NCBI RefSeq assembly: GCF_035920365.1
Contig: NZ_CP109150.1
Location: 4,774,001 to 4,838,000 of the forward strand
Direction of reading: 5' to 3'
From: Micromonospora sp. NBC_01740
GTDB lineage: Bacteria > Actinomycetota > Actinomycetes > Mycobacteriales > Micromonosporaceae
DNA length: 64,000 nucleotides
Within the stretch, counting starts at the first letter, position 1; every line of letters begins with the position of its first letter. The position numbers and the translations under genes are program-made. Of the stretch, positions 6,691-44,997 are shown piece after piece. The notes beneath the pieces are model-generated. The model was not told where the DNA came from, did no database searches, and saw only the letters and a list, made by a program, of their open reading frames with translations.

Positions 6691-7341
6691 ATGCGGAAAG
6701 TGATCGCGAACGAGTGGATGACGCTGGACGGGGTGGTGCAGGCTCCCAGCTATCCCGACGAGGATCTGACCGGTGGCTTCCAGCACGGCGGCTGGCATGC
6801 CCACTACTTCGACGACCTGTCGATGGGCTGGGTGATCGAGAACGTACGCGGCGCGGGCGGCTACCTGTTGGGACGGGGCACGTACGAGATCTTCGCGGCC
6901 CACTGGCCGAACGCGCCGGAGGAGCAGCAGGTGCTCGCCGGGCCCCTGAACGCGCTACCGAAGTACGTCGCCTCGACGACTCTCGACGAGCCGCTCGGCT
7001 GGTCGAACTCGACACTGCTGCCAGACGACATCGAGGCGGCCGTGCGCGCGCTGAAGGCCGAGACGGGGAAGGACCTGCATCTGATCGGCAGTCCCGGTCT
7101 CTTCCAGACCCTGCTGGACCTCGGCCTGGTCGACGAACTCCGGGTGATGATCGATCCGCTGGTGGTGGGCGGCGGCGGCAAGCGCCTGTTCGGCGCCGAC
7201 GGCGCACACCGTCCGCTGCGGCTGGCCGACAGCCAGGTGACCAGCACGGGCGCGATCATCGCGACCTACGTCGCCACGAACCCGAGTCGACCGGGTGGCG
7301 GCAGGTCGCCGAACTCGCCCAGTGCGAGTGGGCGGCGATAG
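6691..7341 (+). CDS. Dihydrofolate reductase-like protein (RibD C-terminal domain)
   Basis: 216 residues. MRKVIANEWMTLDGVVQAP is the signature start of RibD-C/YyaP-YwjB-like proteins. GYLLGRGTYEIFAAHWP and LHLIGSPGLFQTLLDLGLVDELRVMIDPLVVGGGGKRLF give the NADPH-binding and core strands. AGGAGCC supports the ATG. Cytosolic reductase-like protein of unknown substrate; not itself a riboflavin biosynthesis gene, since no rib neighbours are present. Confidence 0.88.
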   Translation: MRKVIANEWMTLDGVVQAPSYPDEDLTGGFQHGGWHAHYFDDLSMGWVIENVRGAGGYLLGRGTYEIFAAHWPNAPEEQQVLAGPLNALPKYVASTTLDEPLGWSNSTLLPDDIEAAVRALKAETGKDLHLIGSPGLFQTLLDLGLVDELRVMIDPLVVGGGGKRLFGADGAHRPLRLADSQVTSTGAIIATYVATNPSRPGGGRSPNSPSASGRR

Positions 7342-7456
7342 TGCTGGCTGTGCCGTTGTGTATCCGAGGTGGACGAGTCCACTGATCGTCGCCCACGTCG
7401 CCGTTCTCCTGCCGGTCGCTCGACACCAGGCGGCTCCCCACCGGCTTGGGCTCCTC

Positions 7457-10087
7457 TCAGCCGGCGCCGAAGCAGACGAACGCGGCGGCGGTGGCATGGG
7501 CGCCACCACCACCGGCGGTGTCGAACGCGCGCTGGGCCTCGGCGAGCGCCACCGCCGGCGGAGCACCGGCATGCATCCGCCGGTGCAGGTCCAGCATCAG
7601 CGCGGTGGTCAGGTCGGCCGGGACCGGCAACACGGTGGCGATCAGGCTGCGGGTGCCCAGGGCCAGCAGCACGGCGGTGAAGCCCATCACCTCGTCGCCC
7701 GGCCGGACGCCGGAGAGGCCGGAGTCGCACGCGGAGAGCACCACGCAGCCCGGTGGGCGGGTCAGCCGCTCCAACTCGTACGCGGTCAACGGCCCGTCGG
7801 CCAGTTCGAGGGTGGAGAAGAGCGGGTTGTCGGCGCGGAAGGCGCCGTGCGCGGCGATGTGCGCCAGCCCGGCCCCGTTCAGCGCGTCGGTGACCGCGTC
7901 GGCGGTGGCGGCGCAGCCGGTGAGGGGGCGGGAGCCGGGCAGGGCCGCGCCGAGCTGACGTACCTCGGTCTCGGCGGCGGGCAGCCGGGGCCCGGCCACC
8001 AGCACCGGCGGGCCGGCCGGGACGATCCGCCCGACGGCGCGCAGCCAGACCGTCGCCGAGGGCGCTACCGTCACCGGCCGGCCGGCGCAGGTCGGCAGGC
8101 CCGACCAGGGCACGGCGTGCAACGCGGCGATCGGGACGATCACCAGTGGCCGGTCGCGCAGCAGCCGGCGTACCGGGTCGAAGAGCTGCTGGTCCAGCGC
8201 GGTGGTGGCGAACTCGACCCCGGCCCGGGCACTGGCCGAGTCGCCGGTGGTGACCAGCCGGCGCAGGCCGAACCGGTGCAGGCGGGCCCGGCCCAGCGCC
8301 TCGTCGAGCGGGCCGAGGTCGTGCAGGCTGGTCCGACCGTCGCGGACCAGTACCGCCCGCAGCCGTGGCCCGTGCGCCACCAGCTCCAGCAGCACGGCGT
8401 CACCGAGCGCGGCGGCGAGGGCGCCAACCGTGGGCGGTGCCACCAGGTCGCCGCCGTCCGCTCCCCGGGCCCCGCCGTCCGCCCCCCGGGCCAGTTCGCG
8501 GATGCGCTGTTCGAGTCGGCCCTGGCTGCGCCGCAGCGCGTACCCGGGGTGCCCGGCGAGCAGCGCGTCCTCCAGGGCGGTGCTGACCATCCGCAGCTCG
8601 GCCAGGGCGGCGGCCAGCTCGGGGTCCTGCGGCGGCTGCACCGCGCGCATCCGCAGGGCGTTGGCCCGCCAGCGTTCCGCCCAGGCCAACACCTGGGCGG
8701 GCGTGCCGGTGCGCACGGCGATGTCCAGTCCCTCGGCGGCGAGTTCGTGCCCGTACGCCCCGCTGTGCGCGCGCAGCTCGGTGGCGCCCAGGGAGGCCCG
8801 GTGGCCGTCGAGCACCCCCAGCCCCCGGCGCAGGGCCCGGGCTGCCCCGCGCAGGTCACCGTCGAGCCGGCGCCGCAGCGCGAGCGCGTACCAGCCCTGG
8901 GCCCGGTGGGGCGCGGTGCCCCGGCGGTGCGCGCGGGCCGCCACCGCCAGCAGTTCGGCCGCCCGGGCGGGCCGGCCCATCGCCTCGGCCAGCCGGGCGG
9001 CCTCGATCCGGGTGGTCAGCGCCGGCGAGGGCCAGCCGGTGGCGTCGAGCTGCCCGGCGGTGCGCACCATGGCGGTGAGCAGGGCCGTCGACCGGGTGCC
9101 CCGGGCGAACTCGGCGCGCAGTTCGACGTGCCGGGCGAAGGCGGCCCAGATGCGGCGTCCCTGGCGGCGGAAGCGGGCCCGGGCCGAGGCGGCGGCGGTC
9201 GCGGCGGTGTCCAGGTCACCGGCGAGCAGCGCCGCCCGGGCCCGCGCCAGCAGCGCCTCGGCGAGATCCGAGGCCATGCCGCGCCGCCGTAGCTCCGTCA
9301 CGGCGGACGTAGCGACCTCGACCGCCTCGTCGACCAGCGGTACGGAGAGCAGCAGTTCGAAGCGGTCCAACAGCAGCGCCGGCCGGGGCACCGACAATCG
9401 GCGGTACTCGTCGCCGACGGTGGCGAAGCTGCGCAGCGCGCCCGCGACGTCGCCGCGCTGGCCGGCGGCGATGCCGATGTTCCAGCGGGTGTCGGCGGCG
9501 GCCAGGTCGAGCCCGAGCCGGCTGAAGATGGCCGCGGAGCGGAACAGGTCGTCGTCGGTGTCCCGGCTGGTGCCCCGGTGGGCGTTGAGCAGCCCACGGT
9601 TGTTGCGCGCCCGTGCCTCCAGTAGCAGGTCGCCCTCGCGCTGGGCGATCTCCACCGCGATGCCGTAGTCCCGGACCGCCTCGTCGAACCGTCCCCGGTA
9701 GTGCAGCACGACGCCCCGCTGCATCCGGGCCCGGCCGGCGTCGGCACCGGTCAGTCGGGGCAGTGCCAGGGTCACCGCGCGGAGCGCCGCGCCGGTGCGC
9801 CCGGCGTTGGCCAGGACGTACCCGAGGCTCATCCGGGCCAGTGCCCGTGCCCGGGGCGAGTCGGTGACCCGCACCGCCCGGCGCAGGTGCCGCAGGGCGC
9901 CCGGCAGGTCGTTGAGTTCCCGCAGGGCCAGCCCGATGGCGCGTTCGGCGGTGGACCGCTCGTCGGCGTCGGGCTGCCCGGCGGCGAGGACCTGCCGGGC
10001 GATCGCGATCGCCTCGCGGGGGTAGCGCTGGACGGCGTCGAGTGCGGCCTGGGCCTGGACGGCACCGGGATCGGTGCTGTCGGCCAT
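7457..10087 (-). CDS. TPR-CHAT caspase-like protease
   Basis: 876 residues. The N-terminal two thirds are Ala/Arg/Leu-rich helical tetratricopeptide-like repeats (for example AIGLALRELNDLPGALRHLRRAVRV and AEIAQREGDLLLEARARNNRGLL-type units). The C-terminal part (about 600-876) is a CHAT domain with the clan CD dyad: His747 in HIAAHGAF and Cys787 in VLSACDSG. Cytosolic; it is expected to cleave a partner after activation through the TPR part. It is divergent from a subtilase/sigma/154-residue operon with 187 bases between. TPR-CHAT proteases coupled to ECF sigma factors are known from type III-E CRISPR loci, but no CRISPR component is visible here. The start is placed at MADSTDPG, where coding bias begins. 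Confidence 0.85.
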   Translation of the reverse strand: MADSTDPGAVQAQAALDAVQRYPREAIAIARQVLAAGQPDADERSTAERAIGLALRELNDLPGALRHLRRAVRVTDSPRARALARMSLGYVLANAGRTGAALRAVTLALPRLTGADAGRARMQRGVVLHYRGRFDEAVRDYGIAVEIAQREGDLLLEARARNNRGLLNAHRGTSRDTDDDLFRSAAIFSRLGLDLAAADTRWNIGIAAGQRGDVAGALRSFATVGDEYRRLSVPRPALLLDRFELLLSVPLVDEAVEVATSAVTELRRRGMASDLAEALLARARAALLAGDLDTAATAAASARARFRRQGRRIWAAFARHVELRAEFARGTRSTALLTAMVRTAGQLDATGWPSPALTTRIEAARLAEAMGRPARAAELLAVAARAHRRGTAPHRAQGWYALALRRRLDGDLRGAARALRRGLGVLDGHRASLGATELRAHSGAYGHELAAEGLDIAVRTGTPAQVLAWAERWRANALRMRAVQPPQDPELAAALAELRMVSTALEDALLAGHPGYALRRSQGRLEQRIRELARGADGGARGADGGDLVAPPTVGALAAALGDAVLLELVAHGPRLRAVLVRDGRTSLHDLGPLDEALGRARLHRFGLRRLVTTGDSASARAGVEFATTALDQQLFDPVRRLLRDRPLVIVPIAALHAVPWSGLPTCAGRPVTVAPSATVWLRAVGRIVPAGPPVLVAGPRLPAAETEVRQLGAALPGSRPLTGCAATADAVTDALNGAGLAHIAAHGAFRADNPLFSTLELADGPLTAYELERLTRPPGCVVLSACDSGLSGVRPGDEVMGFTAVLLALGTRSLIATVLPVPADLTTALMLDLHRRMHAGAPPAVALAEAQRAFDTAGGGGAHATAAAFVCFGAG

Positions 10088-32799: not shown

Positions 32800-32957
32800 G
32801 TCTTGACGCCGCCGAGACGGCGCGCGCAGACTCATCGACCAACGAACCCGTTCCGCGCCGAGCGTCCACACCGTCCGGTCGCTCAGCGCGGGGTCGAGTG
32901 ACGCCTGCCCGCACCCCCTTGCCCCCGTCGGCGCGCCCCACGAACGGAGGGAACGCG

Positions 32958-33965
32958 ATGACGCGTACCCCGGAAGGCTCCTTCTCCCGACGCACGCTGC
33001 TGCGTGGCGCGGCAGCCGCCGGTGTCGCGACCGCGACCACCGGCGCCGGCCTTGCCGCGACCCCCACGCCGGCGCTCGCCGCACCGGCCGGCTTCCCCAA
33101 CTACCGGTACGTGCGCGACGCGTTCGACAGGCCGTTGCGTTACAACCCGACCGGCGAGTTCATCTTCCCGTGCGTGCGCGGGGTCTACGACAAGATCAGC
33201 GGTGCCCTCGGCCGCTACTACCTCTACTACGCGCCACACGACGCGCCCGGCGGGATCTGCCTCGCCTACGCCAACCGGCTCGAGGGCCCCTACACCGAGT
33301 ACGCCAACAATCCCGTCGTCGACCGGGTGCTGCCGTCCACGACGGTGAGCCACGTGTCGTCGCCGCACGTCGTGTGGGATGCGCCGACCCGGCAGTTCTA
33401 CCTGTACTTCCACGGCGAGAACCACACGACCCGGGTCGCCCGCTCGAGCGACGGCGTCCGCTTCACCAACGAGACGCCGATCCTGTCGACGAACCTGGTG
33501 CCCAACACGACCGAGACCTCGTACGCGCGGGTCTTCGAGCACTCGGTGGCCGGCAAGGGAAACCGCTACGTGATGGTGTTCATGGGCGCACACACGATCC
33601 GGCCGGGCACCCGGAAGATCTTCTGGGGCTGGTCGCCGAACGGCTGGAGCGGCTGGCAGTTCTCCCCGAACCCGCTGGTGTCGCCGTCGGGCGACGGGCT
33701 CACCGACATCTCCGCGCCGCACCTGTTGAAGCGAAACGGCACCGCGTACATCGCGTACCACGGCAGCAGCGGCAACATGTACCTGACCGAGGTCGGCAAC
33801 AACTTCGACCGGGAGGTCCACCTCGGCGTGTTCCACCGGCCGATCGCGTCGGACAACGGCCGGGTGGCCTCGCCGACGTTCGGCACCGACGGCGGCGTGG
33901 AGTACATGCTCTACGAGGCGGGGCCCCGCCTCGACGCCAGGATCTGCGTGGCCCGCGCGGTCTAG
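32958..33965 (+). CDS. Tat-exported five-bladed beta-propeller (GH43/GH117-like)
   Basis: 335 residues. Twin-arginine signal SFSRRTLLRGAAAAGVATATTGAGLAA. The mature protein has propeller blades with FPCVRGVYDKISGALGRYYLYYAPHDAPGGICLAYA, VSSPHVVWDAPTRQFYLYFHGEN, RKIFWGWSPNG and TDISAPHLLKRNGTAYIAYHG, the layout of glycosidase propellers. Substrate not predictable. GGAGGGAAC supports the ATG, which gives the correct leader; the longer frame upstream is non-coding. Ends seven bases before the convergent ECF S-component gene. Confidence 0.8.
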   Translation: MTRTPEGSFSRRTLLRGAAAAGVATATTGAGLAATPTPALAAPAGFPNYRYVRDAFDRPLRYNPTGEFIFPCVRGVYDKISGALGRYYLYYAPHDAPGGICLAYANRLEGPYTEYANNPVVDRVLPSTTVSHVSSPHVVWDAPTRQFYLYFHGENHTTRVARSSDGVRFTNETPILSTNLVPNTTETSYARVFEHSVAGKGNRYVMVFMGAHTIRPGTRKIFWGWSPNGWSGWQFSPNPLVSPSGDGLTDISAPHLLKRNGTAYIAYHGSSGNMYLTEVGNNFDREVHLGVFHRPIASDNGRVASPTFGTDGGVEYMLYEAGPRLDARICVARAV

Positions 33966-33972
33966 GACCACA

Positions 33973-34872
33973 TCAGGGGACGTCGCCCGGTCGGTCGGTG
34001 GTCGCGGCTCCGGCCACCGGCCGGGACGAACCCGCCCGGTCGTCCCCACCCGTGCGAGGTGGGTCCGGCTGTGGTTCGGGCGCGGCGAAGGTGACCGGAG
34101 CGTCGAACGCGGCCCGCCGTGCGGCGCGGCGCAGCGCGGCGAGCACCGCGGGGCCGGCGAGGACGATCGCCACGGCGGTGGTGATCGCGCGTCCGGTGTC
34201 CCAGCCGAAGGTGGAGGTGACCGCCGTGAAGACGGCGAAGCGGTGCAGGTTCTCCAACAGTGGCGCTCCGGCGACGTAGGAGAGCTGGGTGTCCGCGCCG
34301 ATGCTGAACGGCCAGAACCACAGGTTCATCAGCAGTCCGTAGCCGTAGGCCGCGAGGACGCCGTAGCCGGCCAGGGCAGCGATCTCGGCCCGGCCCCGCA
34401 GCCTCGCCGGTAACAGGCCGGCGCCGAGACCGATCCAGGACGCGGCCAGCATCTGGAACGGCAGCCACGGCCCGACCCCCGCGGTGAGCAGCGCGGAGGC
34501 GAACAGCGACGTCGAGCCGAGCAGGAAGCCGAAGCCGGGCCCGAACACCCGGCCGGCGAGTACGAGAAGGAAGAACACCGTCTCGATGCCTGCGGTGCCG
34601 GCGCCGAGCGGGCGCAGCGCGGCGTTGACGGCCGCGAGCACCCCGAGCATCGCCAACGCCTTGCTGTCGATGCCGCCGGAGCTGAGTTCGGCCAACACCA
34701 GCGCGACGAGCACCGGCAGCACCACGAGGAACACCAGCGGCGCCTCGCCCGTGCGGGCGGTGCTCTCGGGATGGGCGGGGACGAAGAACGGCCAGGTGAA
34801 GGTCGCCAGTGCGGCGGCCGAGGCCAGGACCAGCACGACAGCGGTACGCGGGGCGACCCGCAGCACGCTCAC
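33973..34872 (-). CDS. ECF transporter substrate-binding (S) component, probable cobalamin
   Basis: 299 residues with about six transmembrane helices (for example TAVVLVLASAAALATFTWPFF, LVFLVVLPVLVALVLAELS, IETVFFLLVLAGRVFGPGFGFLLGSTSLFASALL) and a Pro/Asp-rich cytosolic tail. The FGPGFGFLLGSTSLFASALLTAG block is typical of ECF S components. Last gene of the riboswitch-led operon; its GTG overlaps the ATPase stop (GTGA). Specificity for cobalamin is inferred from the cobalamin riboswitch and the transcobalamin-like genes upstream, not from the protein itself. Confidence 0.85.
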   Translation of the reverse strand: MSVLRVAPRTAVVLVLASAAALATFTWPFFVPAHPESTARTGEAPLVFLVVLPVLVALVLAELSSGGIDSKALAMLGVLAAVNAALRPLGAGTAGIETVFFLLVLAGRVFGPGFGFLLGSTSLFASALLTAGVGPWLPFQMLAASWIGLGAGLLPARLRGRAEIAALAGYGVLAAYGYGLLMNLWFWPFSIGADTQLSYVAGAPLLENLHRFAVFTAVTSTFGWDTGRAITTAVAIVLAGPAVLAALRRAARRAAFDAPVTFAAPEPQPDPPRTGGDDRAGSSRPVAGAATTDRPGDVP

Positions 34873-36500
34873 CCCGGCTCCCCGGTCGTGGCCAGTGCGG
34901 CCGCGACCTGCTCCACGGTCAGCCACGGCGCGGGGGCGAGGACCTTGGCCACCTGCGGGGCGAACGCCGGCGAGGCGAGCATGACCTCCGCCGTGGTGCC
35001 GGCGGCGACGATCTCCCCCTCGGCCATCACCACGACCTGGTCGGCGAGGGCCGCGACGAGCTCGACGTCGTGCGTCGCGATCAGCACCGCCCGGCCGTCG
35101 GCGGCCAGCCGTCGGACGACGGCGGTGAACTGCCGCTTGGCGCGGTAGTCCAGGCCGCGGGTCGGCTCGTCGAGCAGGACCACCGGCGGGGCGGCGGTGA
35201 GCTGTACGGCGAGCGCGAGCGCGAGCCGCTGCCCCTCGGAGAGGTCACGGGGGTGCCGGTCGGCGGGTAGCCCCGGGGTGAGCTGGTCGAGCATCGTCCA
35301 ACAGGTGCCGGCCGGTGCTCCGGTCTCCCGGTCGGCCTGATCGCACTCGGCCTCCACCGTCTCCAGGTACAGCAGGTCACCGGGGGTCTGCGGGACCAGA
35401 CCGACATGCCGGCGGGCCCGGCCCGGCGGCAGGGCCTTCGGGTCGACGGTGCCCTGCGCGCCGACGACGGCGACGGTCCCGCCCTGGCGGGGGCCGCTGC
35501 CCTGCACCGCCCAGAGCAGGCTCGACTTGCCGGAGCCGTTGCGCCCCATCAACGCCACGATCCGGCCGGGAGACAGCTCCATGTCGACGCCGGCCACGGC
35601 GACCGTCCCCGGGTAGCGCACGACGACGTCGCGGGCCGTCAGGACGGGGGGCGCGTCCGGGACCGTCGCCGCGGCCGGCACGGCGGCGTCGGCGAGCCGG
35701 TGGCGCAGGGCGGCCGCCCGCCGGCGGGCATCGCGTACGGACAGCGGCAGCGGCGTCCAGCCGGCGAGACGGCCCAGCTCGACCAGCGGTGGTGCGATGT
35801 CGACGTCGGCGAGCACGGCGGCCGGTTCCCCGTCCACCACCCGACCGTCGCCGGGCAGGTAGAGCAGCCGGTCGGCGTACTGGACGACCCGTTCCAGCCG
35901 GTGCTCGGCCAGCACCACCGTCACGCCGAGGTCGTGCACCAGCCGGGTCACCACGGCGAGCACGTCCTCCGCCGCGGTGGGGTCCAGCGCGGAGGTGGGC
36001 TCGTCGAGCACCAGCACCCGCGGGTGGGCGGTGAGGACCGACCCGATGGCGACGCGCTGCTGCTGCCCGCCGGACAGCGTCCGCAGCGGCCGGTCGCGAA
36101 GCTCGGCGATGCCCAGCAGGTCGAGGGTCTCCTCGACCCGTTTGCGCATCACCGTCGCCGGCAGGGCGAGCTGCTCCATCCCGTAGGCGAGCTCCTCCTC
36201 GACGGTGTCGGTGACGAACCCGGACAGCGGATCCTGCCCGACCACGCCGACGACGTCGGCGAGGTCACGCGGCGGATGACGGCGGGTGTCCCGGCCGTCG
36301 ACCGTCACGCTGCCGTGCAGGGTGCCGCCGGTGAAGTGCGGCACCAGCCCGTTGATCGCCCGCAGCAGCGTGGACTTGCCCGTGCCGGTGCGACCGACGA
36401 CCAGGCAGAGCTCACCCTCGTCGATGCGCAGCGTCACGTCCCGCAGGGTCGGGCGGTCGCTCTCGGCGTAACGGACGGTCACCCGGTCGAAGTCGATCAC
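34869..36500 (-). CDS. ECF transporter ATPase, two fused ABC domains (EcfA-EcfA')
   Basis: 543 residues with two complete nucleotide-binding domains. NBD1: GRTGTGKST, LSGGQQQR, VLVLDEPTSALD. NBD2 (from about residue 265): GRNGSGKSS, LSEGQRLA, VVLLDEPTRGLD. Drives the EcfT/S complex. The GTG start follows GGGAGG and overlaps the EcfT stop; its own stop overlaps the S-component start, so the three are translationally coupled. Confidence 0.95.
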   Translation of the reverse strand: MIDFDRVTVRYAESDRPTLRDVTLRIDEGELCLVVGRTGTGKSTLLRAINGLVPHFTGGTLHGSVTVDGRDTRRHPPRDLADVVGVVGQDPLSGFVTDTVEEELAYGMEQLALPATVMRKRVEETLDLLGIAELRDRPLRTLSGGQQQRVAIGSVLTAHPRVLVLDEPTSALDPTAAEDVLAVVTRLVHDLGVTVVLAEHRLERVVQYADRLLYLPGDGRVVDGEPAAVLADVDIAPPLVELGRLAGWTPLPLSVRDARRRAAALRHRLADAAVPAAATVPDAPPVLTARDVVVRYPGTVAVAGVDMELSPGRIVALMGRNGSGKSSLLWAVQGSGPRQGGTVAVVGAQGTVDPKALPPGRARRHVGLVPQTPGDLLYLETVEAECDQADRETGAPAGTCWTMLDQLTPGLPADRHPRDLSEGQRLALALAVQLTAAPPVVLLDEPTRGLDYRAKRQFTAVVRRLAADGRAVLIATHDVELVAALADQVVVMAEGEIVAAGTTAEVMLASPAFAPQVAKVLAPAPWLTVEQVAAALATTGEPG

Positions 36501-37759
36501 GAAGGGCCTCCCTGCGTGGGGGACGACGACGCCAGCCGACCCGCTCCGCCCGCCGGCGCGGCGTCGACCGGACCGCGGGGTGCGGTCGCCGGGCCGGCGG
36601 TGCGCGCGGCGGACGTCCGCGCGAGCGCGGGAGGTGGCGCCAACCAGGCCGGTGCCGCCGCGACCACGACGGCGAGCAGCGTCAGCGGCGTCAGCTCGGG
36701 CCAGGTGAGTGGGCTCACCGGCGGATAGAGAAGCTCCGGATCGACCGAACCGGCCAGTACCGTCAGCGCGGCGGCACCCACCCCGCAGCCGGCCACGAGC
36801 AGTTCCGCGCCCCGCCAGTGGTCCGGCCGGTAGCGGCTGCGCCGCACCCGACGGCCGGCCAGCAGCATGCCGGCCACGGCGGTCGACAGGCCGACGAGGA
36901 GCATCGGCAGACCCAGGTACGCGGGGCCGGTGGCGTCGAGCAGCCCGTACGTGCCGGCGCAGACGCCGACCAGCCCGCCGAGCACCAGCGCACCGGTGAC
37001 GGCGCGCTGCCCGGCCGGCACCGCCGGGGTGCGGCCGTAACCCCGGGAGTCCATCGCCGCGGCCAGTGCCAGCGACCGGTCCAGCGCGTCGGCCAGCACC
37101 GGCAGCGCGATGCCCCGCAACGCCCGTACTCCCCGGCCGGAGGCACCCCGCAGCCGCCGCGCCCGGCGGACCCGCAGCACGCTCTCGACCAGTTGCGGGG
37201 CGACCGACAGGGCCACCACCACGGCGGTGACCACCGCGTACAGGGCCCCGGGCACGGCTTTGAGCAGCCGCTTCGGGTTGGCCAGGGCGTTCGCCGCGCC
37301 GAGGCAGACCAGCATCGTGGCCAGCCGTAGCCCGTCGTAGAACCCGCCGAGGAGCTGCTCGGCGGCGACCGGCCCGAACAGGCGGATTCCCGCCGCCCAC
37401 GCGGGCAGGGGGATCTCGGGAAGCCGGACGAGCACGTGGTCGCCCTGCCCGCCGCCGAACACGATCCGGAACAGCACCCGCATCGCCACGATCACCGCGC
37501 CGAGCACCAGGTACATCCGGAATGCCAGCGCCCACGGCGCGTCTCCCCGCCGCCGGACGACCACCAGCGCGGCGACGGCGACGAGCAGGCCCAGCGGCAA
37601 CGGGTTGGTGGTGTGGCTGGCCGCGGTGGCCAGGCCGAGCGCCCACAGCCACCACGCGCCGGGGTGCAGCGCCCGGGGCAGGCGCGTCGCCCGTCCCACC
37701 GAACCTGCCCGGTCCGCTCCGGCGGGCCTCTCCACCCGGCGGGTGCTCCGGTCAGTCAT
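36497..37759 (-). CDS. ECF transporter transmembrane coupling protein EcfT
   Basis: 420 residues. About seven hydrophobic helices; the cytoplasmic coupling region contains LRVRRARRLRGASGRG and AMDSRGYGR, the two Arg-Gly coupling-helix motifs of EcfT. The C-terminus is a long Ala/Pro/Arg-rich tail absent from typical EcfT proteins (about 260 residues). ATG overlaps the stop of the beta-domain gene upstream. Confidence 0.88.
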   Translation of the reverse strand: MTDRSTRRVERPAGADRAGSVGRATRLPRALHPGAWWLWALGLATAASHTTNPLPLGLLVAVAALVVVRRRGDAPWALAFRMYLVLGAVIVAMRVLFRIVFGGGQGDHVLVRLPEIPLPAWAAGIRLFGPVAAEQLLGGFYDGLRLATMLVCLGAANALANPKRLLKAVPGALYAVVTAVVVALSVAPQLVESVLRVRRARRLRGASGRGVRALRGIALPVLADALDRSLALAAAMDSRGYGRTPAVPAGQRAVTGALVLGGLVGVCAGTYGLLDATGPAYLGLPMLLVGLSTAVAGMLLAGRRVRRSRYRPDHWRGAELLVAGCGVGAAALTVLAGSVDPELLYPPVSPLTWPELTPLTLLAVVVAAAPAWLAPPPALARTSAARTAGPATAPRGPVDAAPAGGAGRLASSSPTQGGPS

Positions 37760-38672
37760 CCGGCTCGACGGTCCGCCGCCGCCGTGCGGCCAGCAGACCG
37801 CCCGCGCCGAGCGCGACCAGCAGCAGCACGCCGGCTGCCGTCCCCAGCGGGATCCCGCGAGCGTCACGGGGGGCGGCCACCTCGGTCACCGCCGGCTGGT
37901 CGACGGAACTGCCCGCCGGTGGGCTGACGGCAGCGCTCGCGGGTGGCGTCGCGACGCCCGCGCTCGGTGTCGGGACCGGGCCGCCGGCGGTCGGCGTACC
38001 GGTGGGGAGCGGCGCGGGCCCGGCGGAGCCCGGCACCGGTCCTGCCACGCCGGGCCGGCCCGCGGTGGCAGGTGGTGGCGCGACCGGCCGACCGTCTCCT
38101 GCCGGCGGTGGGGCGACCGGGCCGCCCCGGGTGGGCGGTGCCGGGGGCGGAGGGGACGGTGGTGGCGGCGGTGGCGCGGGACGCCTCGGTGCGGCGCCCG
38201 GCCGGGGCGCGTCGTTGGCGTTGCGGTTGAGGGAGAACGACCAGCCCTCGAAGCTGCCGGCCGGCGGCTTGCGGTTGAGCACACCCTTGTCGCTGTACGT
38301 CCAGCTGCCGCCGCTGGTCGCATGCCAGTACGACCAGTAGGCGCTGGCGGGAGGCGTGTCGACGCACTTCTCGGACGCCGTCGACGGCTTGCCCTCGATC
38401 CGGCAGACGAACCCCTCGCCCCAGCGCAGCGTGCCGGTCATCTGGAACCCGGCGTTCTTGAGCGCCGCCAGCCCGGTGGACTGCTCGCCCCGGGCGCACC
38501 GCACCACGGTCCCGCCGCCGAGTTCGTTGAAGTCGACCACCACGGTCACACCGGAGGCGTCCGGGCAGTAGCCGGCCGATCCGGCGGCCCTCGCGGGGGT
38601 GCCCGATCCGACCATCGTGCCGGCGGCGGTGAGGGCGACGACCAGTCCGGCGCGGGCGGCCCGGACGGTCAT
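37752..38672 (-). CDS. Membrane-anchored transcobalamin-like beta-domain (DUF4430) protein
   Basis: 306 residues. Signal peptide, then a domain of about 110 residues (GVTVVVDFNELGG, GLAALKNAGFQMTGTLRWGEGFVCRIEGKP, YWSYWHATSGGSWTYSDKG, GSFEGWSFSLN) matching the DUF4430/transcobalamin C-terminal beta-domain pattern. A long Pro/Ala linker and a C-terminal transmembrane helix with RRRR follow, without an LPxTG. Operon between the alpha-domain gene (ATGA overlap) and EcfT. Inference: surface half of a two-part B12 binder feeding the ECF transporter. Confidence 0.8.
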   Translation of the reverse strand: MTVRAARAGLVVALTAAGTMVGSGTPARAAGSAGYCPDASGVTVVVDFNELGGGTVVRCARGEQSTGLAALKNAGFQMTGTLRWGEGFVCRIEGKPSTASEKCVDTPPASAYWSYWHATSGGSWTYSDKGVLNRKPPAGSFEGWSFSLNRNANDAPRPGAAPRRPAPPPPPPSPPPPAPPTRGGPVAPPPAGDGRPVAPPPATAGRPGVAGPVPGSAGPAPLPTGTPTAGGPVPTPSAGVATPPASAAVSPPAGSSVDQPAVTEVAAPRDARGIPLGTAAGVLLLVALGAGGLLAARRRRTVEPDD

Positions 38673-40135
38673 GCCGCCCGCCGACGGCCGAGTACGACGA
38701 GCAGCACCCCGCCGCCGACCAGCAGGAACGCGATCAGCACGTAGCTGGTGATCGCCGCGCCGGTCGTCGGCAGCCCGCCCAGGCCCGGGGTGGTCGGGGT
38801 CGCGCCCGGGGCGGCGGTCGTCGACGCCGTGGCGGACGGGGTCGACGGCACGGTGGTCGCGGACGGGCTCGGTGTCGGGACGGCCGTCCCGGTGGGCGTC
38901 GGTGACCCGGTGGGCGTGGGGGAGGTGGTGGCGCTGGGGGAGGCGGTGGCGGTGGGCGGGGCCGTGCCGGTCGGGGTCGGCCCGGGCGACGACGGCGGCG
39001 GGTCGAGGCCGATGCCTCCCAGCGGCACCTGGACGAGGCCGAGCACGGCCTGTGCGGTGCCTCGACGCCACTGGTCCCGGTCGGTGTCGGTGATCCCGGA
39101 CGCGACCGCCGTCGTCAGGCTGTCGGTGTTGTAGGCGACGGCGCCCGCGTCGGCGGCGGCCGCGCCGCCGTTCGCTGCGGTCAGCTGTAGTGCGGCCAAC
39201 GCGCCGGCGGCCCGCGCGGCCTCGGCGTCGCGGCCGGCGGCGGCGAGGGCCTGTCCGGCCAGGCCGGTGCTGTTGGAGTTCGCGCCGGTGGTCGGGCCGG
39301 AGCCGCCGAACGAACCGTCGGCGCGCTGCTGATCCACCAGCCAGGCCACGCCCCTGGCGGCCGCCGCGGTGGCGCCGGCGGCGCCGTCGGCGGCGGCGGC
39401 GAGCAGCGCCTGCACGGCCATCGCGGTCGAGTCGACGTCGAGGGTGGCGCCGGCCTGCTCGTCGCAGGACGGGGACGGGCCGTCGGCGGTGTCGGGGTAT
39501 AGCCGGAACCCACCGGCCGCGCACTGCTGGCGGATGAGGAAGTCGACGGTGTCCTGCGGTACGTCGCCGCTGCGAGCCAGGCCCAGCACGGCGAAGGACT
39601 GGTCGAAGGCGTTGCTGGCGTCCGGACCGGTGTCGGCGGTGGTGCGGCTGGTGATCCGCCCCCGCTGGTGTCCGGCGTCCGCCCCGGCGACCAGCGACAG
39701 GGTCTCCGTCCGCAGGTCGAAGCCGCCGAAGTCGGTGGGATCGGCGCCGGCGGCGGAGGCGGCGTACAGCAGCTTCGCGGTCGACCCGCCGTCGATGAAG
39801 CCGGGGATGCCCCAGTCGTCGAGGCTGTTGTAGGACCGCACGTGCGCCGCGACCTGCGCCGTCGCGGCCTGACGGACCGGCGCGTCCACCCCGGTGGCGG
39901 ACAGGGCGAGGAGCCCGTCGATGGTCAGACCCCAGTCCGGACCGCCGAACGGGCCGGGCAGCACCCCGTCGGCGAACTCGCCGGCCAGCCAGGAGGCGGC
40001 GTCGCGCGCGGCGGCGGCGTGGGTCGGGGCGGGCGCGGCCACGACGGTCAGAGGTACGGCGGTGAGCGCGGCGATCGTCGCCGCCGTGGCGGCGACGACG
40101 CCGGCGCCGAGACGCCGGGAACGGGACCGGGACAT
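38669..40135 (-). CDS. Wall-anchored transcobalamin-like alpha-toroid protein
   Basis: 488 residues. Signal peptide (SRSRSRRLGAGVVAATAATIAAL). An alpha/alpha-toroid of prenyltransferase/squalene-oxidase-type repeats spans about 45-365 (DWGLTIDGLLALSATGV, DVDSTAMAVQALLAAA, WLVDQQRADGSFGGSG, NSNSTGLAGQALAAAG). A Pro/Thr/Ser stalk follows, then a sortase signal LPTTG at 455-459 with hydrophobic stretch and RRRAA. No terpene cyclase Asp-rich motif. The fold matches the N-terminal domain of intrinsic factor and transcobalamin. First gene behind riboswitch 1; start ATG gives the signal peptide. Confidence 0.82.
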   Translation of the reverse strand: MSRSRSRRLGAGVVAATAATIAALTAVPLTVVAAPAPTHAAAARDAASWLAGEFADGVLPGPFGGPDWGLTIDGLLALSATGVDAPVRQAATAQVAAHVRSYNSLDDWGIPGFIDGGSTAKLLYAASAAGADPTDFGGFDLRTETLSLVAGADAGHQRGRITSRTTADTGPDASNAFDQSFAVLGLARSGDVPQDTVDFLIRQQCAAGGFRLYPDTADGPSPSCDEQAGATLDVDSTAMAVQALLAAAADGAAGATAAAARGVAWLVDQQRADGSFGGSGPTTGANSNSTGLAGQALAAAGRDAEAARAAGALAALQLTAANGGAAAADAGAVAYNTDSLTTAVASGITDTDRDQWRRGTAQAVLGLVQVPLGGIGLDPPPSSPGPTPTGTAPPTATASPSATTSPTPTGSPTPTGTAVPTPSPSATTVPSTPSATASTTAAPGATPTTPGLGGLPTTGAAITSYVLIAFLLVGGGVLLVVLGRRRAA

Positions 40136-40194
40136 GAGGGGTGCCTTTCGCGGAGCGGTCGGTGGAAGCTCCGGAAAGCACCCGGGGACAGCGA

Positions 40195-40226
40195 CACCCC
40201 GCTCGCGTGATGCGATGAGCGGGGTG
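40195..40226 (-). terminator. Hairpin of the riboswitch expression platform
   Basis: Perfect ten-base arms CACCCCGCTC and GAGCGGGGTG separated by 12 bases, between the cobalamin aptamer and the alpha-toroid start. It can act as an attenuator or sequester the ribosome site; no U run follows. Confidence 0.5.
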
Positions 40227-40254
40227 GAACGGACCTCGGTGGCCCGGACTTCAC

Positions 40255-40405
40255 CCTGTAAACCTCGACAGTGGAAGCCGCTCGTCCCGGGCGAGGCATT
40301 CCGGCTCGCGAGGCCCGGGGCCTCGCTCACGGTTGCGGGTCAGCGCCGGCTTCGAACCGGCTTCCCCCCACTCGGGACGTATGCAGTTGTGGACCGGCGT
40401 GCACC
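40255..40405 (-). promoter_or_regulatory. Cobalamin riboswitch 1
   Basis: Read on the minus strand, the region contains GGGGAAGCCGG, GAAGCCGGCGCTGACCCGC and AACCGTGAG, then a variable stem and GAGCCGGAATGCC, the ordered conserved core of actinobacterial cobalamin riboswitches (the GCTGACCCGCAAC segment is diagnostic). It precedes the alpha-toroid/beta-domain/EcfT/A/S operon. Expected to lower expression when adenosylcobalamin is plentiful. Boundaries are approximate. Confidence 0.88.
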
Positions 40406-40502
40406 GGGTGCCGACACCGTACCGCCCGCACGTCGCGCGACGCCAGGGGAGGTGGCCGGCACCCGGTGCACCACTACGGTGACACCCCGTGTGCGGCCAC
40501 GG

Positions 40503-40988
40503 TCAGGGCGCGGCGATGCTCGGCGGGGCGCCCGCGCCGAACGACCAGCCCTCGACGGTGCCCGGGGCCGGGTTGTAGCTGCTCGCGCCGGACGTGCTGT
40601 AGGACCAGGCGCCGCCGCTGGGGGCATGCCAGTACGACCAGTACGCCGTGGCGGGCGGGGTGTTGACGCACGGATCGGCTGCGGCGGTCGGCTTGCCGTT
40701 GATCCGGCAGACGAACGCCAGCCCCCAGCGCTGGGTGCCGGTCACCGTGAAGCCGGCACCCTGGAGGGCGGCCAGCCCGGAGGCCGGGTCGCCCGGAGCA
40801 CAGGCGACCTGGACGCCACCGCCGAGCGCGGCGAAGTCGACCACGACGGTGACACCGGAGGTGCCGGTGCAGGCCGCGGCGTACCCGGCCCGGGGGGCGG
40901 GTTCGACGGCGGTGAGGGCGACGGCGGCGACGGCTGCTGCCAACAGGCCGGCGAGCCGGGTGCGGACGGTGGATCGGTGACGGAACAC
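40503..40988 (-). CDS. Secreted transcobalamin-like beta-domain (DUF4430) protein
   Basis: 161 residues. Signal peptide, then GVTVVVDFAALGGG, GLAALQGAGFTVTGTQRWGLAFVCRINGKP, YWSYWHAPSGGAWSYSTSG and GTVEGWSFGAG, closely matching the beta-domain of the anchored paralogue 2 kb away but ending right after the domain, so it is free or loosely held. The GTG follows AGGAGGAACC; a longer frame to 41027 overlaps the upstream stop but lacks a comparable ribosome site. Partner of the alpha-toroid gene immediately upstream. Confidence 0.82.
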   Translation of the reverse strand: MFRHRSTVRTRLAGLLAAAVAAVALTAVEPAPRAGYAAACTGTSGVTVVVDFAALGGGVQVACAPGDPASGLAALQGAGFTVTGTQRWGLAFVCRINGKPTAAADPCVNTPPATAYWSYWHAPSGGAWSYSTSGASSYNPAPGTVEGWSFGAGAPPSIAAP

Positions 40989-41023
40989 GGTTCCTCCTGG
41001 AATCGGTGGAGCGACGGGACGGG

Positions 41024-42091
41024 TCACGGGCAGGCGGGGACCGGTGCGCCCGGGGCGGCGCCGGCCGCGGACAGCCTGGCGTACCCGGTGCCGGTCAGGC
41101 CGAGGACAGCCTGGCCGGTGGCCCGGGCGGCGGTGCCGGGGTCGAAGGCGCCGCCGTCGAAGTCGACCGCGCCCCGGTCGGCCGGCGCCCCGGCGCAGCC
41201 GACCTGTAGTCCGGCGAGGAACACCCGCGCGCGGGCCCAGGCCAGCGGCCGGTTGCCGTCGCGCAGCGCCTGCGCGACGAGGCCGGTGCTGTTGGCGTTC
41301 GGGATGCCGGCGGCGTTGGCGAAACCGCCGTCGGCGCGCTGCACCGACAGCAGCCAGCGCAGCCCGGCGGCGGCGTCGGACGGGCGGCCGGTGGCCCGCA
41401 GCGCCTGCACCGCGAGTGCGGTGGCGTCCACGTCGGAGGCACAGACCGGTTGCGCGGGCAGCAGCGGGTAGCCGCCGTCCGGGCAGCGGGTGGCGGCCAG
41501 CCAGGCGGCGGCCGCCGGGGGCGTGCCCTGCGAGGTGCGGCCCAGGGCGAGTAGGGCGAAGGACTGGCTGAACGTGTTGCTGTAGTCCCCGTACGCCGAC
41601 CGGTCGGTGAACCGGCCGGTGGGGGCCTGCAGCGAGCGCAGTCGGGCGACCAGGTCCACGCCGCCGACGTCGGTGGGGTCGCCGCCGCGTACCTGGACGG
41701 CGAGGGCGAGCTTGGCGGTCGCGCCCGCGTACGCCTCGGTCGCGCCGTCGCCGAGGTAGGCGTCGCGGATGTCCGGCCGGGTGACCCAGGCCAGCGCCCG
41801 GGCTCCCGGGTCGTCGGCGACGCCGGCGGCGGCGAAGGCGAACACCGCGTCGAGGGTGAGGCCCTGGTCGGGGTAGGTGACGCCGTCGAAGACGACCTCG
41901 AGGCGCTCGCCGTCGACGAGTTGGCGGGCCAGCCAGCCGGCCGCGGCCTCCGACCGGCCGACCGCGGCAGGCGAGGTGGGGGAGACGTGAGCGGATGCCG
42001 GCGCGGCGAGGGTGAGGGTGGTGAGGGTGAGGGCGGCGAGCACGCCGCGGAACAGGGTGAGCAGGCGGTGCCGGCTCAGGCGGACGACCAT
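41024..42091 (-). CDS. Secreted transcobalamin-like alpha-toroid protein
   Basis: 355 residues. Signal peptide RHRLLTLFRGVLAALTLTTLTLAAPASA. Repeats of the same alpha/alpha-toroid type follow (DQGLTLDAVFAFAAAGV, DVDATALAVQALRATG, WLLSVQRADGGFANAAG, NSTGLVAQALRDGNR), ending GQAVLGLTGTGYARLS without stalk, LPxTG or membrane anchor. Paralogue of the wall-anchored protein. Placed directly behind riboswitch 2 and followed by its beta-domain partner. Inference: soluble B12-binding half. Confidence 0.82.
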   Translation of the reverse strand: MVVRLSRHRLLTLFRGVLAALTLTTLTLAAPASAHVSPTSPAAVGRSEAAAGWLARQLVDGERLEVVFDGVTYPDQGLTLDAVFAFAAAGVADDPGARALAWVTRPDIRDAYLGDGATEAYAGATAKLALAVQVRGGDPTDVGGVDLVARLRSLQAPTGRFTDRSAYGDYSNTFSQSFALLALGRTSQGTPPAAAAWLAATRCPDGGYPLLPAQPVCASDVDATALAVQALRATGRPSDAAAGLRWLLSVQRADGGFANAAGIPNANSTGLVAQALRDGNRPLAWARARVFLAGLQVGCAGAPADRGAVDFDGGAFDPGTAARATGQAVLGLTGTGYARLSAAGAAPGAPVPACP

Positions 42092-42194
42092 CGGAAGCGC
42101 CTTTCCGGCCCGGCGGTCGTCAGAAGCCCGGCCACCCGCCGCAGCGCGGGGGTCGACCGGGACTCCGACCCGTGGGCCACGACGGGTGGGGAGC

Positions 42195-42330
42195 GGATTC
42201 TGCGCGTACGTCGGGTATTCGGGCTCGCCGTCGGAGATGCATCTCGACGGCCTACCGTTGCGGGCCAGCGCCGGACTTCGACCGGACTTCCCCCGCACGC
42301 ACGCGCGTTGGTTGAGTTGTGGCGCCAGTC
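42195..42330 (-). promoter_or_regulatory. Cobalamin riboswitch 2
   Basis: Minus-strand sequence GGGGGAAGTCCGG, GTCCGGCGCTGGCCCGC, AACGGTAGG, a variable stem and GAGCCCGAATACCC form the conserved cobalamin aptamer. It shares CCACAAC upstream of the core with riboswitch 1. A short ACCCGT/ACGGGT stem (42168-42187) follows toward the gene and may be the expression platform. Controls the secreted alpha/beta pair. Confidence 0.88.
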
Positions 42331-42399: not shown

Positions 42400-44997
42400 T
42401 CAGGACAGGATCTCGACGTACCCGTCGGTGGCGTGCACGCGGATCCGCTGTCCGTCCCGGATCAGCCGGGTCGCCTGCGCCACCCCGACGAGGGCGGGCA
42501 GGCCGTACTCCCTTGCGACCACCGCCCCGTGGGTCATGAGGCCGCCCACCTCCGTCACCAGTCCCGCGATCGCGACGAACAGGGGTGACCAGCTCGGGTC
42601 GGTGTAGGCGGTGACCAGGATGTCGCCCGGTTCGAGGTCGGCCTCGGCCAGGTCCAGGACGACGCGGGCCCGCCCCTCGACGGTCCCGCCGGAAACCGGG
42701 AGGCCGACCAGCGCGCCGGTCGGCACGTCCTCGCGCCGGTATGCGCCGGCGATGCCCTCGCCCTCCGACGTGAGCACCCGGGGCGGGGTGAGCGTCCGGT
42801 ACGACCTGAACGCGTCCTTGCGCCGCTGGATGAGCTGGTCGTCCACCTCGTGCGTACGCACGACGTCGTGGAGCTCCTGGAACGTGAGGTAGAAGATGTC
42901 CTCCGGCTCCGGGAGCACGTGGGCCCGCACGAGGCGCCCGGCCTCTCTCAGCAGGGCCTGCTTGTAGCTGAGGTAGCGGCTGACGATGACGTACTTCGGA
43001 TACTCGCGGTACCCGATGAAGGTCCGGACCCGGTCGATCATCCGCTTCGTCTCTTCCGCCTTGCGCTCCCCGTCCGGCAGGGCCCGCAGGCGCTCCAGGA
43101 CCTCCCGTTCCTTCCGCGCCGCCTGCTGGCGCCCCTGCGCGAAGCGCCGCTCGCGGGCGCCCGGCTCGAGGTTCCTGACGTTGTCGAGGATGAGGGGCAC
43201 GAGCGTGCTGGGGCGCTCGCTCCAGCGCGGCCTCGTGATGTCGATCTCGCCGGCGCAGCGCATGCCGTACCTGTCGAGGTAGGCCCGGATGGCGTCGCGC
43301 GCTTCCCGGCCGCCCGGGAGCCGTGGCAGCTCGTCCACGAAGCCCTCGTCCTCGACCTCCCGCAGGAAGGCCACCACCTCCGGGTGCGGGCGGATGACGT
43401 CGGCGACGTCCAGCAGCGCCAGTCCCATCTCCGACGTGACGTTGTCGGGCGCGGAGAGCGTGAGCGTGTCGGCCGCGTTCTTCTCACCCAGCCACTCGTA
43501 CAGCCTGTCGTTGAGCCACCACGTGGCCTCCATCCCCGCCATGATCGCCTGCATGCTCAGCGGATCGCCGAGGCCCCGCTTGTGCTCCTGGAAGGCCTTC
43601 AGCAGGAAGTCGAACAGCGCCGGCCCGGACTTCGTCCGGATGTCGCGCCGCAGGGTGGCGAGGGCCGCCTGGCTGCGTTCGACCAGCTCGGCGACGATGG
43701 CCGGATCGGTCTCGATCGGGGCGGGCGCGCCGCCGGCGGGCGGCCCTGCCGGCCCTTGGTCGGGGAGCGACGGGACGAAGTCGCCGCGACCGAGGACGGT
43801 CTCCAGCGCGTCCCTGATCAACGGATCGGACCGCCCTACCATCTCCAGAAGGCCGGCGCGGCTCGCGGGCGCGGCCAAGCGCCCGGTCACGTCGACGAAC
43901 AGCCTCCCGCCGGCCTCGTGCATCGGCGCCATGGCCGTCAGCTGCCACATGGAGATCCCCAGGGGCTTCATGGGGTCCGTCATCATCTGCTGGTGACCGA
44001 CGGAGACGTAGACGTGGTTCGCGCCGTCGCCGGTTTCGGGGATGGGGAACAGCGTGGTGATCGGCCGGCTCTGGACGATCTGGAAGTCGTCGTCGACCAG
44101 GCACCACTCGATGTCCTGGGGGTGGCCGAAGTGGGCTTCGATCCGCCGGCCCAGCCGCACCAGCCGTACGACCTGCGCATCCGTCAGGGCCGGCTGCTCC
44201 TGCCGCTCCGAGTCGATCGCCTGTTGCCTCGTCCCGCCGGCCGGCAGGGCGTGGATGGCCAGTCGCTTGGCGGCGATCGCCTTTTCGACGATCTGACCGT
44301 CCCGCACCCGGTAGGCGTCGGCGTTCACCAACCCCGAGACGAGGGCCTCGCCGAGGCCGAAGCTCGCCTCCACGACAGCGACCTTCCGGTGGTGCGTGAC
44401 GGGGTCGGCCGTGAACAGGACGCCGGCCGCCTGCGGGAAGACCATCTTCTGCACGACCACGGCCATGTGGACCGTGCGGTGGTCGATGCCGTTGCGTCGA
44501 CGGTAGGTCACGGCCCGCTCGGTGAAGAGCGAGGCCCAGCACCGGCTGACGTGCTGGAGGACCGCTTCCTGCCCCACCACGTTCAGGTACGTGTCCTGCT
44601 GGCCCGCGAAGGAGGCCGTCGGCAGGTCCTCCGCCGTCGCGCTGGACCGGACGGCACAGGCAGCCCCCTCGCCGAGCCGGGCGAGGGCCCGGACGATCGC
44701 CGCCGCCACGTCGTCCGGGAGGACGACCGCTTCGATGGCCCGTCGGATCTCCGCACCGAGCGCGCGGATCGTCTCCCGGTCGTCCGGGTCCAGGCGCGAC
44801 AGCCGGTCGAGCCGATCGTCGATCGACGGCGCTTCGGCCATGATCCGCCGGAAGGCGTCCGTCGTCACGCAGAAGCCAGCCGGCACGCGGATGCCGTCGA
44901 CCCGCGACAGAGCCGCCAGGTGCGCGCCCTTGCCGCCGACGGAAGCGACCTGCGCGTCGTCGACCTCGTGGAGGTCGCACACGTACTGCTCGATCAT
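42400..44997 (-). CDS. rph: Rifamycin phosphotransferase
   Basis: 865 residues, the family's usual length. The N-terminal ATP-binding domain (about 1-310) has GGKGAHLAAL and AVRSSATAEDLPTASFAGQQDTYL. A central rifamycin-binding region contains MAGMEATWWLNDRL, REYPKYVIVSRYLSYKQALL and PEDIFYLTFQEL. The C-terminal swivelling His domain carries catalytic His823 in GGLMTHGAVVAREYGLPALVG (His825 in the Listeria enzyme, from memory). It phosphorylates the C21 hydroxyl of rifamycins using ATP, inactivating them. Often mis-annotated as PEP synthase. GGAGGGG precedes the ATG. A rifamycin-associated element lies about 110 bases upstream. Confidence 0.93.
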   Translation of the reverse strand: MIEQYVCDLHEVDDAQVASVGGKGAHLAALSRVDGIRVPAGFCVTTDAFRRIMAEAPSIDDRLDRLSRLDPDDRETIRALGAEIRRAIEAVVLPDDVAAAIVRALARLGEGAACAVRSSATAEDLPTASFAGQQDTYLNVVGQEAVLQHVSRCWASLFTERAVTYRRRNGIDHRTVHMAVVVQKMVFPQAAGVLFTADPVTHHRKVAVVEASFGLGEALVSGLVNADAYRVRDGQIVEKAIAAKRLAIHALPAGGTRQQAIDSERQEQPALTDAQVVRLVRLGRRIEAHFGHPQDIEWCLVDDDFQIVQSRPITTLFPIPETGDGANHVYVSVGHQQMMTDPMKPLGISMWQLTAMAPMHEAGGRLFVDVTGRLAAPASRAGLLEMVGRSDPLIRDALETVLGRGDFVPSLPDQGPAGPPAGGAPAPIETDPAIVAELVERSQAALATLRRDIRTKSGPALFDFLLKAFQEHKRGLGDPLSMQAIMAGMEATWWLNDRLYEWLGEKNAADTLTLSAPDNVTSEMGLALLDVADVIRPHPEVVAFLREVEDEGFVDELPRLPGGREARDAIRAYLDRYGMRCAGEIDITRPRWSERPSTLVPLILDNVRNLEPGARERRFAQGRQQAARKEREVLERLRALPDGERKAEETKRMIDRVRTFIGYREYPKYVIVSRYLSYKQALLREAGRLVRAHVLPEPEDIFYLTFQELHDVVRTHEVDDQLIQRRKDAFRSYRTLTPPRVLTSEGEGIAGAYRREDVPTGALVGLPVSGGTVEGRARVVLDLAEADLEPGDILVTAYTDPSWSPLFVAIAGLVTEVGGLMTHGAVVAREYGLPALVGVAQATRLIRDGQRIRVHATDGYVEILS

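Follow-up and report, generated by a model that had tools for sequence, protein, structure and literature searches.

The single-contig 7.32 Mb genome of Micromonospora sp. NBC_01740 carries, within the 64,000-nucleotide stretch analyzed here (4774001–4838000; termed the window and numbered from its own first position below), a cluster for two pairs of predicted exported proteins, alpha (the toroid half) and beta (the beta-grasp half), and for an energy-coupling factor (ECF) transporter, which together probably catch and take up vitamin B12. All of the genes described by an earlier sequence-only reading were found, with refined coordinates, in the same direction on the minus strand and with a GC content at third codon positions of 0.88–0.95. 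Unit 1 comprises a cobalamin riboswitch aptamer (RF00174; 42193–42316), alpha1 (41024–42091, 355 amino acids (aa)) and beta1 (40503–40988, 161 aa), whose GTG start has AGGAGG ahead of it. Unit 2 comprises a second aptamer (40273–40390), alpha2 (38669–40135, 488 aa), beta2 (37752–38672, 306 aa), the CbiQ-type energy-coupling transmembrane protein EcfT (36497–37759, with ATG at 37759 as the most likely start), the fused twin ATPase EcfAA' (34869–36500, 543 aa) and an S component (33973–34872, 299 aa), predicted to be the corrinoid-specific subunit. The expectation of a riboswitch at the start of both units was confirmed, both leaders exceeding the RF00174 gathering score of 31.5 bits, narrowly (34.8 and 32.3 bits, respectively). 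Unit 2 is tightly packed: the beta2 start overlaps the alpha2 stop, and by the refined coordinates alpha2/beta2, EcfT/EcfA and EcfA/S share 4 bases each and beta2/EcfT share 8. This pair leads directly into the transporter genes, as had been proposed.

The pair of unit 2 is anchored and the pair of unit 1 is not, again in agreement with the sequence-only reading. Alpha2 ends in a cell-wall anchor, LPTTG (about 38759–38773), followed by a hydrophobic stretch and RRR, and beta2 has a Pro-rich stalk and a C-terminal transmembrane tail, a hydrophobic stretch followed by RRRR, whereas alpha1 and beta1 have neither a sorting motif or hydrophobic tail nor an Arg-rich end. The same genome has six sortase matches. 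Export of the four proteins is predicted from hydrophobic N-termini, judged by eye. Alpha1 and alpha2 are 37% identical over 246 aa, and beta1 and beta2 57% over 145 aa; a search with beta2 returned only beta1 and beta2 as beta genes of the genome, and among named proteins those closest to beta1 come from Micromonospora.

Neither Pfam scans of 53 beta sequences nor profile searches of the PDB (60 of 82 rows in one of them) gave a sequence-only link to transcobalamin, and structure comparison was therefore needed. The AlphaFold2 model of beta1 (pLDDT 84.9), with the element order E45–51, E59–65, H71–77, E82–85, E89–96, E117–123, E144–150, is a beta-grasp with a hairpin inserted after the helix, as in the transcobalamin and intrinsic factor family. 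The sequence-only reading had made its case for the pairs depend on superposition on transcobalamin, and the beta half does superpose: the beta1 model fits the beta domains of transcobalamin, haptocorrin and intrinsic factor better than the other chains compared. Among sequence families, SCO2322_fam matched 52 of the 53 betas at E up to 0.001, with the window betas far under its cut-off (31.1 and 37.1 bits against 85), and PF28005.1, a precomputed Pfam family that was absent from the results of our own Pfam scan, already covers the betas.

PF14478 (DUF4430), a transcobalamin-type domain recognized by Pfam, matched none of the 53 betas at E up to 10. In the source genome DUF4430 had no match at the locus and one sub-threshold match elsewhere. 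The domain is not rare in the phylum, occurring in 76 of 396 sampled genomes; the beta family occurred in 50 at E up to 0.001, nine of these, all from one genus, matching only from profile position 116 on. Two genomes had both, 48 only beta and 74 only DUF4430 (Fisher p 0.002, uncorrected for shared ancestry), as if the two families were near-exclusive and one stood in for the other. At one locus of the same class (L117) the order is beta, EcfT, EcfAA' (by eye), S and alpha, followed by a DUF4430-domain gene (E 4.7e-8), which places a recognized transcobalamin-type domain next to an alpha gene. This DUF4430 gene was not matched by the beta profile. Among the open frames at 30 DUF4430 loci, L117 and a further locus (L118), that profile found, beyond the L117 beta, only a match at L090 with E 0.18. 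Weak EcfT matches were present at 6 of the 30 DUF4430 loci (best i-E 4.7e-11, weakest 2.8e-6). L118, from genome G207, encodes a DUF4430 protein (7095–7778, minus strand); its 14 kb of fetched sequence gave no match to alpha, beta or EcfT.

For the alpha half, a transcobalamin-like toroid had been proposed, and the toroid held for a homologue. We saw an alpha/alpha toroid, a fold common to many other families, in the model of a natural beta-alpha fusion (L048), a homologue of alpha2; of 120 listed homologues of L048 (536 found), 17, L048 included, align over at least 91% of its length. Transcobalamin was among the Foldseek matches of this model, but class II terpene cyclases were closer and are the nearest solved neighbors of the toroid; transcobalamin was absent among the 50 VIA-align rows listed. 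Sequence families were similarly distant. PF01122 (Cobalamin_bind) reached 10.7 bits for alpha2, below its gathering score of 25, and did not match alpha1; at E up to 1 it matched 11 of 36 alphas (best 1.8e-4). Alpha1 had a weak Prenyltrans match (E 0.0018), and SCO2321_fam, which matched 35 of the 36 alphas at E up to 0.001 (alpha1, E 4.1e-33), gave 114.9 bits for alpha1 and 93.7 for the other window alpha, far under its cut-off of 300. The cyclase neighbors, together with the automatic name 'prenyltransferase/squalene oxidase repeat' borne by L048 homologues, would suit an exported enzyme, a terpene cyclase- or glycosidase-like toroid, with a partner, both regulated by B12 for some other reason. 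DxDD is the catalytic motif of class II terpene cyclases, and none of the 36 alphas had it at the profile column aligned with DVDD of squalene-hopene cyclase, on which ground we rejected the enzyme reading of alpha. With a transcobalamin-type domain as the partner and a conserved ECF operon alongside, we regard an enzymatic role for the pair as very improbable.

We next turn to relatives of the cluster, 74 loci from Actinomycetota (by their titles) that were fetched through a beta match, from the best 80 of 314 matches, so that beta is present by selection. Alpha, beta, EcfT, EcfA and S were all present in 57; the other 17 had no match to one or more of them in the fetched stretch, several of which lie at contig ends. 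In six loci (L036, L047, L048, L057, L059 and L079) beta and then alpha form a single open frame, and three of these fusions have a second toroid stretch (L036:2355–5315, L057:7785–10643 and L059:10244–13396, each beta plus two successive toroids). From these sequences, alpha and beta appear to belong together, and two separate exported proteins could act as one clamp.

The transporter itself has the EcfT and paired EcfA ATPases that define an ECF transporter. EcfT matched PF02361 with 34 bits (cut-off 25), and EcfAA' has two ABC_tran stretches, with TIGR04520 and TIGR04521 as its top two NCBIfam matches, both under their cut-offs. The S component scored 30.6 bits with PF12822 (ECF_trnsprt; cut-off 30.7) and has a mean column identity of 62% over 23 sequences; a PDB profile search returned no relative, its sole match being Sharpin at E 2.1.

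We scanned 37 of the 74 loci (559,490 bases), picked for spread of genera, for riboswitches. Thirty-six of the 42 cobalamin-type matches lie upstream of a stretch that matches alpha, beta or EcfT, at a distance of at most 700 nt (35 assigned by script, L079 by hand); such a riboswitch was present in 26 of the 37 loci (25 by script, L079 by hand) and absent from 11. The cluster is apparently under B12 control. Genome searches found no match for CobN or CbiC in the source genome. It has a CobS match, CobU and CobT (DBI_PRT) domains in one open frame of 721 residues (L086:3299–5464), the activation domain of B12-dependent methionine synthase, and two more cobalamin riboswitches, which precede an ATP-cone ribonucleotide reductase and a BtuF/BtuC-like pair (stretches L084:913–3324 and L085:459–2667). 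Judged by its genes, the bacterium appears unable to build vitamin B12, and its gene content fits that of a corrinoid salvager. Across 101 genomes of the family, 15 had beta and CbiC, 22 only beta, 43 only CbiC and 21 neither (odds ratio 0.33, Fisher p 0.012, uncorrected for phylogeny); one genome (G045) was left out of this count as its two matches cover only profile residues 3–43. This anticorrelation is a tendency, not a rule.

The CobU, CobT and CobS domains make salvage of cobinamide plausible, and the ligand might be some riboswitch-linked compound other than complete cobalamin: cobinamide or a different incomplete corrinoid, cobalt, or a lower-ligand base. EcfT belongs to CbiQ, a family that takes its name from cobalt transport, and haptocorrin is reported to bind various cobalamin analogues (PMC3360681), so that a transcobalamin-like fold leaves the ligand unfixed. 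However, the S component resembles ECF_trnsprt, just under the cut-off, with no CbiM-type cobalt family reported for it in the Pfam and NCBIfam scans, and cobalamin is the ligand held between the alpha and beta domains of transcobalamin (PMC11107200). We consider a ligand other than complete cobalamin unlikely.

The tool-supported parts of the picture are gene order, anchors, riboswitch matches, the beta fold, the toroid fold of the homologue, the fusions and the missing CobN and CbiC. The occurrence of beta-alpha fusions in nature, the riboswitches, the conserved link to ECF genes and the lack of CobN and CbiC matches agree with B12 capture, and we are confident, short of certainty, that the locus serves to capture and import corrinoids (vitamin B12) under riboswitch control, with predicted cobalamin binding. 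In the mechanism that we infer, which extends to the ligand, the direction of regulation, which half binds first, the hand-off and the role of the free pair, low internal B12 would lead to expression of both units. The beta proteins would be first to bind the corrinoid; the alpha toroids would then close over it, like the two domains of transcobalamin, here as separate polypeptides. Free alpha1/beta1 would collect B12 extracellularly or within the wall; alpha2 in the wall and beta2 in the membrane would receive and clamp it and might present it to S. Import would then be ATP-dependent, powered by EcfT/EcfAA'.

The free pair invites two further readings. As unit 1 has no importer genes, and some loci have only one set, alpha1/beta1 could be a redundant or decaying duplicate without a scavenging role of its own; we find this quite unlikely, since unit 1 has its own riboswitch and unanchored and transmembrane-anchored alphas and betas are both present in 31 of the 74 loci, across several genera (anchoring called by a simple hydrophobicity rule; two of these, L036 and L059, counting fusions). 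More speculatively, though still a possibility to be entertained, the pair may be a secreted two-protein 'B12-phore', in which alpha1 and beta1 diffuse apart, assemble only around a corrinoid and pass the loaded complex to the anchored twin pair and on to the ECF importer.

Directly upstream of the operon (42400–44997, minus strand) lies a match to the rifamycin-inactivating phosphotransferase Rph (NF041857, 1624.9 bits, cut-off 999). A convergent gene on the plus strand (32898–33965) has a twin-arginine-like N-terminus, by eye, and no NCBIfam match.

Animal transcobalamin, intrinsic factor and haptocorrin, the nearest solved structures to beta1, share the toroid and the beta-grasp with post-helix hairpin. 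They are single chains, alpha then beta, whereas here there are two polypeptides and all six fusions seen have beta first; the window sequences also fall below the PF01122 cut-off, and PF14478 finds none of them. Among bacteria, Burroughs et al. (2007; PMC1796856) described SLBB proteins that are exported or anchored and that occur by themselves or joined to a toroid, with either domain first. Some of the operons have two SLBB genes, and CbiO and CbiQ are encoded alongside. These proteins were reported mainly from low-GC Gram-positives, planctomycetes and some euryarchaea, and were predicted to scavenge B12 in bacteria without B12 biosynthesis. The present cluster shares the SLBB domain (exported, by eye), toroid partner and CbiO/CbiQ-type operon. 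It differs in a beta family missed by DUF4430, separate paired alpha/beta genes, a free set next to an anchored one, and cobalamin riboswitches. Because the 2007 paper had already predicted B12 scavenging for low-GC Gram-positives, less is new here than the label 'split bacterial transcobalamin' implies; as far as the literature searched shows, these four features are new. No account of an actinobacterial split system was found in the openly licensed papers searched, and one may exist elsewhere. SCO2321_fam and SCO2322_fam match most alphas and betas, with the window proteins far below their cut-offs, and their names say nothing about function. EcfT, paired ATPases and an S component are also found in ECF-CbrT and other ECF vitamin transporters, whereas here the ATPases are fused in one chain, extracellular capture proteins adjoin and S has no PDB relative.

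Our results offer a testable function for genes that in many Actinomycetota are at present annotated as 'hypothetical' or 'prenyltransferase/squalene oxidase repeat'. With a natural split transcobalamin, ligand-driven assembly of alpha and beta could be studied with separate proteins, and the 'B12-phore', if true, would amount to a two-part vitamin scavenger, assembled by its ligand and comparable with siderophore capture. The system may also bear on the origin of animal B12 carriers and on the exchange of B12 among bacteria.
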